64,000 nt of DNA from Pseudanabaena sp. PCC 7367 (lineage in GTDB: Bacteria; Cyanobacteriota; Cyanobacteriia; Pseudanabaenales; Pseudanabaenaceae): positions 2,738,001 to 2,802,000 of the forward strand of contig NC_019701.1 of NCBI RefSeq assembly GCF_000317065.1. Direction: 5' to 3'. Shown piece by piece: positions 51,466 to 54,527 of the stretch; position 1 is the first letter of the stretch; each line of letters begins with the position of its first letter. The translations under genes were made by a program, and so were the position numbers. Under the pieces are notes generated by a model. That model searched no databases. It saw only the letters and a list, made by a program, of their open reading frames with translations, and was not told the origin of the DNA.

Positions 51466-53790
51466 TTAGCTAGGCTCCAGCGCCTTATTGCTACGCAATT
51501 GACTGAGCAAAGCTTTAAGTTGATTTAATTCGGCCGGGCGATCGCCATAATGCCAATCCTGATAGGCTTTGGTTAGGGTCTCTATTCTCTGCGCCTGAGG
51601 ATTGGAAACCCGTTGCTTTACATATGCAGCATATTCAGCTGGAGTCTGGCTAGCAGATTTAGGTATGCCCTGTTCTTCTAGCCACTGCAGCATCAACTGG
51701 TAAATACGCTGAGCAGGGTCTAAACGTTGTAAGCGCGATCGTCTCCGCCACCATTGCCAAAGCTGCAACATTGACCAACCCAGAATGCCAAAGCCGAAGA
51801 ACATCGCAACACTGAGAATAAAACCAAACCAGCCCATTCTTCCTAGCCAATTCACGAATCCAGCTAGTTTGGCGCTAATAAACTGGGTCAGGTTAGCGAA
51901 TACGACGGAAATGAACTGGGTAACTGGCGAGGGTAAGAAACCAGCAATCCAATTCCAGAACTGGCGCAGAACACTAAAGGTTTGGGAAACCTCAACCGAA
52001 GGAGGAAACAACGGCCTACCGGGAACAGGATCGAAGGCAATCCACCCATATTCGGGGAAGTACACTTCCACCACTGCCATCGCATCCACATTCTCTACTT
52101 CATACAAGCCAGTAAAGACATTGAAATCACCGGGCGCAAATCCCACTGTGTATCTGGCTGGAATCCCCTGGGCTCGCAGTAGCATAATCAAGGTTGAAAG
52201 GAAATGACTGGGTTGGCCACCACCTTGATTGAGGAATTGACTTGCCGTAGAGCCAATCCCAGGGAAATAGATAAAGTTCTGCAAGCGATATTTCTGCTTC
52301 AGGCTCTGGGTTAACCACAATGCTTGATTATAGGGATTATCAAGCTCCATTCGATTACCAGCAGGGGTTGTGGCATCGGCGAGTAAATCAGTGGCCGCCT
52401 GCTTAAGTAATGCCACTTCATTCGCATCTTCCGGCAATTGCAGGTAATGTTTACGAATTGAATTTGGGTAATCTTGCGGAGCAGCAGCTAGGGCAGTGCG
52501 ATCGCGGATTGGCGCAGATGAGATTACTGTATAGGTTAAGTCTAATGGCAATAATCCCGGTGCTCTCAGGTTCCCTTCTGCATCCAAGTCAATTTCTTCA
52601 CTGGGGAAGAACAGGCGGTAGGGGGTAGAAGCGGCTGGCACCAGATTAGGGAACTCTTCCGTAGTGATCGTATAGGTTTGAATTACATCCTTGGTGGTTT
52701 CTCGTCGCACTGGCACACCCTGCACAACGGGCACAAAGAATTGATAACCGAAGGCCAGTCTGCGGAGGGTGCGAATATCTTCTTCTTCATTCCGCGAAAT
52801 TTGCCAACCAGTGCCAGTATAGTAATCATAGGAAATAACTCGCCAGAATAGTTCTGCTTGGGATCGCACCCGCATCACTAATTGTGGCTCAATATCTAAT
52901 GGTTCGGTATTGGCTCCCGCTTCATCAATCTCTTCCGAGAACAATGGTGGTAAGATCGGTTGATCGCCTTCCTCGCCACCTTCACCACCTTCGCCGATCA
53001 AATCACCAGTATCACCATCAGTTTGCGAGCCACTATTATTGCCTGGTTGGATAATCTGGCCAGGACGCAATTGTCGATCAATATTTATATTCACACTAAC
53101 GGGGAAAGTGCGGAGTTGGAATCCTGGCAGTCTAGGCAATAGGGCAAAAATGGTCATTCCCAAAGCCAAGCTGGTTACCAACAAGCCGATCGTGGTTTGG
53201 GGTGAAAGCCCGATTTTGGTGGGATTGAAGCTACTTGCTGCGACACCAATACGCGATCGATGATCCAAAATCAGCACTGGCACACTCACCAGCAAAAACA
53301 GCAACAGCCAGATGCCAAAGATCGTAGTTTGGCTGAGGGTAGCGGCAACCCCCAGTAAAATCAAACCAATCACGATCGAATAGCCTAAATCTTTTCGCCG
53401 GGGCAGGTCAAAGCTATGTAGCACCTGGAGCTGGATCAAGAGTCTGGCCAGCAACAACCTGGGTTCATCGGCCTGGTTGACCAGATCACCAAGGAAAACC
53501 ACCAGCATCACGATCATGGCGATCGCAATAAAAAACTTGACCAAAACGTTGCGCTGATGCCTCGCCCGCCAACCCCACCATGCGCCGATCGCACTGAGCG
53601 GAATCGCCCAAATACTGTTATTAATCCCGGCGGCTAGGTCTGTGGCGGCAATGCCGATAAATACCAATAGCTGCACCATCACCCGCAATGGGATCGATTC
53701 TTCGGCGGCGGGAATTGGCTGCGAACTAATAAACTTCAGCAGATCGCCAGCGATCGGAATGCGATGCAGGGGGTTGGGTGGGGCGCTCAT
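51466..53790 (-). CDS. TgpA-like transglutaminase-fold membrane protein (catalytic residues lost)
   Basis: 774 residues. Six membrane spans fill the first 220 residues (TgpA/DUF3488 type), then an extracytoplasmic region with a transglutaminase fold (about 440-620), another span near 680 and a C-terminal DUF4129-like segment (QRIYQLMLQWLEEQGIPKSA). In active members the catalytic Cys lies in a G-x-C-x-H-F motif and the His in S-D-A-H-A-W. Here these read G-Q-P-S-H-F and V-D-A-M-A-V, so both Cys and His are missing, while the Asp segment AFDPVPGRP remains. The fold is otherwise well kept, so it is likely a pseudoenzyme. An Asp/Glu/Gly-rich loop (SGSQTDGDTGDLIGEGGEGG) follows the spans. Start ATG at 53790. 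Confidence 0.87.
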   Translation of the reverse strand: MSAPPNPLHRIPIAGDLLKFISSQPIPAAEESIPLRVMVQLLVFIGIAATDLAAGINNSIWAIPLSAIGAWWGWRARHQRNVLVKFFIAIAMIVMLVVFLGDLVNQADEPRLLLARLLIQLQVLHSFDLPRRKDLGYSIVIGLILLGVAATLSQTTIFGIWLLLFLLVSVPVLILDHRSRIGVAASSFNPTKIGLSPQTTIGLLVTSLALGMTIFALLPRLPGFQLRTFPVSVNINIDRQLRPGQIIQPGNNSGSQTDGDTGDLIGEGGEGGEEGDQPILPPLFSEEIDEAGANTEPLDIEPQLVMRVRSQAELFWRVISYDYYTGTGWQISRNEEEDIRTLRRLAFGYQFFVPVVQGVPVRRETTKDVIQTYTITTEEFPNLVPAASTPYRLFFPSEEIDLDAEGNLRAPGLLPLDLTYTVISSAPIRDRTALAAAPQDYPNSIRKHYLQLPEDANEVALLKQAATDLLADATTPAGNRMELDNPYNQALWLTQSLKQKYRLQNFIYFPGIGSTASQFLNQGGGQPSHFLSTLIMLLRAQGIPARYTVGFAPGDFNVFTGLYEVENVDAMAVVEVYFPEYGWIAFDPVPGRPLFPPSVEVSQTFSVLRQFWNWIAGFLPSPVTQFISVVFANLTQFISAKLAGFVNWLGRMGWFGFILSVAMFFGFGILGWSMLQLWQWWRRRSRLQRLDPAQRIYQLMLQWLEEQGIPKSASQTPAEYAAYVKQRVSNPQAQRIETLTKAYQDWHYGDRPAELNQLKALLSQLRSNKALEPS

Positions 53791-53814: not shown

Positions 53815-54288
53815 TTAATCTCTAGCCGCTAATTTATGGCAAACTTGTTCTACAACTTTACGAATATCACTGAGACAGCATCGCCCCTGAGGATTATTTA
53901 CCTCACAGCCACAGCGTTTGGCCTTAATATGAGCCAAGATCAATTCTTCTACAGTGTTTGCCTTTCCAGTCTGTTGAATAGTTTGTTTAATGCGATCGCG
54001 GCTCCAACCAAAACAATAGCAAACAGGTGTTTCTGCCGATTCGCTCTTCAGGGTGACAGGCACTTTTAGATTTTCCAGATTGAAAAGAGAACCGTTTTTA
54101 TTAAAATAAACAATTGGACAACTGGTTGAAGCACAGAAAAAGTATGGCTGCTCAGCTTCAAGGTTTTCAAGCGATAGGGGCTTTAATAAACTCTTCAGGG
54201 TAATAGTAGGTACTGGGCTCCCTTTAGAACCATCAACGGGACAGTTATTTTGATGCCTTTCGACTTCCCCATTGCAACAGTTAGACAT
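53815..54288 (-). CDS. CopZ-N-like Fe-S cluster metallochaperone
   Basis: 157 residues, rich in cysteine: CC at 4-5, C near 16, a CASTSC block, a C-x-C pair (VCYCFGWS) and a C-terminal CGC...CC block. The order matches the N-terminal [2Fe-2S] and zinc domain of the archaeal copper chaperone CopZ, annotated as a putative iron-sulfur cluster-binding metallochaperone. The second half (DRIKQTIQQTGKANTVEELI) is a BFD-like helical segment. The open frame extends to a TTG at 54327, but the ATG at 54288 with GGGAG ten bases upstream is preferred and leaves a 20-bp gap after merF. The two genes are surely one operon. Metal handled (Cu, Hg or other) is not proven. Confidence 0.85.
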   Translation of the reverse strand: MSNCCNGEVERHQNNCPVDGSKGSPVPTITLKSLLKPLSLENLEAEQPYFFCASTSCPIVYFNKNGSLFNLENLKVPVTLKSESAETPVCYCFGWSRDRIKQTIQQTGKANTVEELILAHIKAKRCGCEVNNPQGRCCLSDIRKVVEQVCHKLAARD

Positions 54289-54308
54289 AATATTAAAGCT
54301 CCCCAAAG

Positions 54309-54527
54309 CTATCTCGAAAATCGGCAATGTTGTCTGTATCGAATGTAAGAAAAAGTTGTTAGTAAAATCATACCTAAAAGCAAAGGTAGCAAGATGTAGT
54401 CAAGATATCCCGCAAAAGCCCCCCAGCCAAGCAAACCAATGAATAAAACTAATATAGGTGTAAAGCAACATATTGCTACAACTATAGTTCCTACAATACT
54501 TGCAATCAAGGCGTTTTTCGACTTCAT
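54309..54527 (-). CDS. merF: MerF-like membrane metal-transport protein
   Basis: 72 residues with two membrane spans. The first span carries the vicinal cysteine pair and proline (VVAICCFTPILVLFIGLLGW), as in MerF mercuric-ion importers; GYLDYILLPLLLGMILLTTF is the second span. MerF usually has a second CC pair near the C-terminus; here only one Cys remains (YRQHCRFSR). It is first in a two-gene operon with the Fe-S metallochaperone. No MerR, MerP or MerA is in the window, so a full mercury operon is absent. It may import another soft metal. Confidence 0.82.
   Translation of the reverse strand: MKSKNALIASIVGTIVVAICCFTPILVLFIGLLGWGAFAGYLDYILLPLLLGMILLTTFSYIRYRQHCRFSR

Follow-up and report, generated by a model that had tools for sequence, protein, structure and literature searches.

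A TgpA-type membrane protein without the catalytic cysteine and histidine

The window, by which we mean the whole stretch of 64,000 nucleotides of DNA from Pseudanabaena sp. PCC 7367 that was analysed, carries on its reverse strand an open reading frame for a protein of 774 amino acids with an ATG start (Table 1), exactly where a preliminary description, made from the nucleotide letters alone, had placed it. The protein matches three Pfam domains above their cut-offs, namely, TgpA_N (residues 42-246, 1.1e-17), Transglut_core (residues 483-588, 1.9e-17) and DUF4129 (residues 696-766, 4.9e-18), and no NCBIfam family was assigned to it. The order TgpA_N then Transglut_core in one protein, by which we recognize members of the TgpA family, is shared with TgpA from Pseudomonas aeruginosa (PA2873; structures 6g49 and 6g4h). 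The latter has a Cys-His-Asp (C-H-D) triad, transglutaminase activity in vitro and a proposed role in the cell wall (PMC3507681). The membrane spans appear intact, as the preliminary description held, on the basis of Pfam and a crude hydropathy scan rather than of a structure, and DUF4129 is predicted to be cytoplasmic because it lies after the last hydrophobic stretch.

Table 1. Features of the pseudoenzyme locus in the window.
Feature	Position	Strand	Basis
TgpA-type membrane protein, 774 aa, transglutaminase domain predicted to be catalytically dead	51466..53790	-	ORF; Pfam TgpA_N, Transglut_core, DUF4129
TgpA_N membrane domain, residues 42-246	53053..53667	-	PF11992; hydropathy
Transglutaminase-like core, residues 483-589, the family's most conserved region	52024..52344	-	PF01841; conservation; fold of orthologue L004
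Pro527 codon, replacing the catalytic Cys, motif G-Q-P-S-H-F	52210..52212	-	6g49 alignment; family columns
Met571 codon, replacing the catalytic His, motif V-D-A-M-A-V	52078..52080	-	6g49 alignment; family columns
Asp587 codon, third triad residue, kept, G-W-I-A-F-D-P	52030..52032	-	6g49 alignment; family columns
DUF4129, C-terminal, residues 696-766, predicted cytoplasmic	51493..51705	-	PF13559; hydropathy
CopZ-like iron-sulfur metallochaperone gene	53815..54327	-	NF047645
Antisense ORF, 140 aa	51785..52207	+

The catalytic residues were located by alignment with the periplasmic domain of TgpA (6g49; phmmer, 1.4e-8), in which SGFCAHY stands opposite GGQPSHF, and FDAHAW opposite VDAMAV, of the window protein. 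The triad expected of an active transglutaminase therefore reads Pro527, Met571 and Asp587, and the preliminary description of a transglutaminase-fold protein that has lost both the catalytic Cys and the catalytic His, with these same motif replacements, is borne out. It had also named, as grounds for abandoning this reading, a cysteine elsewhere that completes the triad; no such alternative exists, since the whole window protein contains no cysteine. The same genome encodes three other transglutaminase-domain proteins, one of which, L026, has an S-C-R-D-F / H-A-W site and was scored C-H-D, while another, L025, reads S-C-G-E-Y. Because these two keep Cys motifs, the loss is particular to the gene in the window and not to the genome.

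Distribution and origin of the loss in cyanobacteria

When 386 genomes of the phylum were searched with the window protein, 150 gave matches and 236 none, and 116 of the 150 were same-class, that is, cyanobacterial, orthologues. Residue columns were counted in 115 same-class genomes from 24 families, a set that leaves out G121 and G047, where no single match covers the domain; the analysis also did not extend to those f31 genomes that gave weak matches. Cysteine occurs at the catalytic column in none of the 115, the residues being Pro (96), Ala (12), Glu (3), Gly (1), Arg (1), Ile (1) and Val (1). At the His column we found Tyr (74), Phe (20), His (15), Gln (5) and Met (1), and at the Asp column Asp (98), Asn (16) and Ala (1). 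Cysteine is likewise missing from all 24 named cyanobacterial records, which include Rivularia, Calothrix, Tolypothrix, Crocosphaera, Halothece and Thermosynechococcaceae. Thus, the proposal that the loss is conserved among cyanobacterial relatives stands in full for Cys and only in part for His, which 15 of the 115 genomes retain; that relatives within the class might keep the Cys, which would have undone the proposal, is excluded by both sets.

Two trivial sources of the pattern were rejected. A sequencing or strain oddity would not leave 139 of 139 relatives without the Cys, and a hidden cysteine in the family domain finds no place, the one column where Cys appears (545) being filled in only 2 of 115 genomes. 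In contrast with TgpA, which has C-H-D, the cyanobacterial clade has therefore lost the Cys throughout those 139 relatives and the His in most. All 17 relatives that belong to sister classes within the phylum keep C-H-D, as do 10 distant paralogues. Distant TgpA-like proteins with a complete C-H-D also occur in some same-class genomes that lack the pseudoenzyme (L121-L123, L125, L126 and L128, in families f10, f18, f26 and f20).

In a tree built by a quick method without the catalytic columns and rooted at midpoint, a branch with an SH-aLRT of 100 sets the 31 Cys-less rows apart, and 15 sister-class C-H-D rows adjoin them. The simplest reading of these sequences is that the Cys was lost once, ahead of the divergence of the families sampled from the class. 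The RpoB tree is too weakly supported near its root to place the early branches that lack the gene or to show which of them split off before the loss.

Judged by these residues, the cyanobacterial branch is homologous to TgpA but is not a TgpA-type enzyme, and despite its transglutaminase name the whole examined branch is incapable of Cys-based chemistry. That this branch of the family is catalytically dead is, taken by itself, very probable. It is a clear example of a pseudoenzyme that became fixed early in a large class of bacteria, and its active sister-class relatives are there for comparison. Our literature search for an inactive or dead TgpA branch in cyanobacteria, which covered the top matches of long lists, found no description of one.

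The dead core is constrained and keeps its fold

Across the window protein and 89 unique clade members, mean conservation is highest in the transglutaminase core (0.778), ahead of TgpA_N (0.651), the pre-core (0.604) and post-core (0.582) regions, DUF4129 (0.577) and the linker (0.487). Between close genomes, dN/dS of the core is below 0.1 in 43 of 45 pairs, and lower than the whole-gene value in 44 of 45; of an original 48 pairs, three, all of them relatives from the window's own family, were left out because of saturation. The replacements themselves are non-random: proline, in 96 of 115 genomes, opens what was once the catalytic helix, and an aromatic residue, Tyr or Phe in 94 of 115, takes the His position. 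Moreover, the polar residues R429, Q495, K498, Q499 and N567 are conserved at 0.99-1.00 in this clade and not so in the active one. The term conserved pseudoenzyme used in the preliminary description is thus apt, given a clade-wide loss for which one origin on the tree suffices and a domain under strong purifying selection.

The fold was compared using the Tolypothrix orthologue L004 only, whose model (mean pLDDT 66, with the transglutaminase region mostly at 77-94) is better than the poor one of the window protein (mean pLDDT 54). The periplasmic part of L004 superimposes on that of TgpA (6g4h) with a Z of 23.5 and an rmsd of 3.3 Å over 261 aligned residues, and Foldseek matched the model to TgpA at 5.7e-15. 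The two proteins are alike both in periplasmic fold and in membrane setting. The earlier remark that the rest of the transglutaminase fold is intact accordingly holds for the L004 model, which indicates that the clade has retained the fold while losing the chemistry.

The same comparison returned erythrocyte protein 4.2 (7uzs, Z 9.1), an animal membrane-skeleton protein without TgpA_N or DUF4129 in which the transglutaminase fold serves as an inactive scaffold. Transglutaminase domains that lack the Cys are known in eukaryotes. In fungi, Cyk3, whose transglutaminase-like domain has no Cys, is reported to help activate the septum synthase Chs2 (PMC4758748). Cyk3 resembles the cyanobacterial clade in this absence, but it differs in being eukaryotic, in keeping His and Asp, and in controlling a chitin synthase. 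A Cyk3-like control of the septum by the cyanobacterial protein would be an analogy, a likeness of mechanism only.

Gene neighbourhood

At the orthologous loci, the two genes directly upstream often encode HetZ, identified at 646 bits against a cut-off of 550, and, at the position of PatU, a protein of ~373 amino acids for which no family model scored above cut-off. HetZ was counted among the 116 same-class orthologues, excluding sister-class and weak paralogue matches. Seventy-four genomes have both HetZ above its cut-off and the pseudoenzyme, and in 62 of them, from 11 families, HetZ shares the strand of the pseudoenzyme gene and lies no more than 5 kb upstream of it, the order being HetZ, one gene, pseudoenzyme; in the others it is on another contig (8) or elsewhere on the same contig (4). 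The 68 longer loci comprise 28 with HetZ, 27 of these with PatU; six with only a divergent gene for a protein of 171 amino acids at a distance of 40-115 bases; 33 without hetZ, patU, the 171-amino-acid gene or CopZ; and the window, with CopZ.

The window locus does not have the pseudoenzyme gene directly behind hetZ-patU on the same strand, and no HetZ match was found in the window genome, nor, when searched again, in any of 21 further genomes carrying the pseudoenzyme. Since HetZ is absent from these genomes, hetZ-patU cannot be the sole partner: its linkage to the pseudoenzyme gene is genuine and widespread without being the sole context.

A 'transglutaminase' gene of the hetZ/patU cluster has been described in Mastigocladus/Fischerella and in Nostoc sp. 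PCC 7120 (PMC9284123), and by gene order it is probably an orthologue of the pseudoenzyme. That paper treats the intact cluster gene as a functional transglutaminase and builds a photoprotective role on this name; the residues of the clade say otherwise.

Other neighbours may be noted. The 171-amino-acid protein has no Pfam or NCBIfam match; its gene is divergent beside a pseudoenzyme gene without hetZ at L068, L083, L085, L013, L017 and L090, and is located beyond hetZ-patU in other genomes. In the window, 24 bases separate the end of the CopZ-like gene from the pseudoenzyme gene that follows it on that strand. As general partners, both CopZ (1 of 68 loci, the window alone) and a P-type ATPase (4 loci) were rejected. 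Finally, at L100 in genome G022, an open frame of 943 amino acids joins a C-terminally truncated HetZ to the periplasmic and C-terminal portion of the pseudoenzyme, while patU and the first membrane spans are absent; this fusion is probably a deletion.

Possible functions of the pseudoenzyme

The preliminary description suggested that the protein acts as a binding or scaffold protein in the cell envelope, and we infer the same, since such a role fits the retained fold, the cleft residues and the HetZ linkage found in many genomes. By likeness to the TgpA family, the TgpA_N bundle would anchor the protein in the plasma membrane with the transglutaminase domain facing the periplasm. There, the retained cleft may bind a peptide or amine-bearing ligand of the envelope, either a wall peptide or an envelope enzyme, with no cross-linking, and the cytoplasmic DUF4129 could relay this contact to an intracellular partner; the process under control would most likely be septal or general wall growth.

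A septal role is suggested by the position of the gene directly behind hetZ-patU in many filamentous species, together with the wall role of PatU3, which limits septal peptidoglycan synthesis and binds ZipS, hetZ-patU3 acting in heterocyst differentiation (PMC12288457). The explanation taken whole, in which an ancient TgpA-family pseudoenzyme binds an envelope partner through its cleft and may thereby control septal peptidoglycan growth, seems to us evenly balanced between right and wrong; its septal part, considered separately, is tentative. If the link with division is true, the protein becomes a concrete membrane candidate for linking the periplasm with hetZ-patU, which controls heterocyst differentiation and the growth of the septal wall. 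A more specific version, which we regard as rather speculative, makes it the envelope arm of a HetZ-PatU circuit, one that would sense wall peptides, or keep hold of a septal peptidoglycan enzyme, in the periplasm and report to PatU/HetZ via DUF4129. Such an arm, if it exists, would be an independently evolved bacterial counterpart of the fungal Cyk3 septum switch.

Among the alternatives, the one to be taken most seriously is a non-catalytic envelope role unrelated to division, such as wall anchoring, membrane-protein assembly or metal handling, with hetZ-patU being merely an inherited gene order. We consider it possible, if on the doubtful side: many genomes carry the pseudoenzyme without HetZ, six of the 68 loci face the 171-amino-acid gene directly with no hetZ-patU, and the window gene closely follows a CopZ-like gene, but the latter neighbour is confined to the window, and the constancy of the HetZ, one gene, pseudoenzyme order across 11 families tells against it. 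Alternatively, the old cleft could have been rebuilt as a different enzyme, using Asp528, His529, Asn567, Arg429, Lys498 and Gln495/499 for a reaction distinct from Cys-mediated acyl transfer. That the core is the most constrained region agrees with this, as do the near-invariant polar residues (R429, K498 and N567 at 1.00, Q495 at 0.99 and D528 at 0.96). However, the sole candidate acid and base beside the old Cys vary, position 528 being Asp in most other families but Ser in the window protein and its three family relatives, and His529 being present in 109 of 115 genomes, so that we rejected an Asp528-His529 dyad as an invariant replacement active site. With no Cys column in the domain either, a new enzyme is unlikely.

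Decay was also weighed, that is, a functionless domain that persists as part of a membrane protein with other important domains. Broken copies do occur: the gene is interrupted by in-frame stops in G385 and G121 (L131, L133), with three in G385, pseudogenes are reported for Mastigocladus UU774 and PCC 9339 (Fischerella/Mastigocladus; PMC9284123), and the L100 deletion fusion in G022 may be counted with them. The broken copies in these two genomes and the two reported pseudogenes mean that the gene is dispensable in places. Yet no other region of the protein is as well conserved as the dead core, which has the low dN/dS reported above and persists in 115 genomes from 24 families; this leaves decay disfavoured and, in our judgement, very improbable. 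A bound envelope partner remains our preferred reading of the retained cleft.

The conserved core is also overlain by the antisense frame listed in Table 1. Similar antisense open reading frames recur at many loci, and they are probably a by-product of codon constraint.
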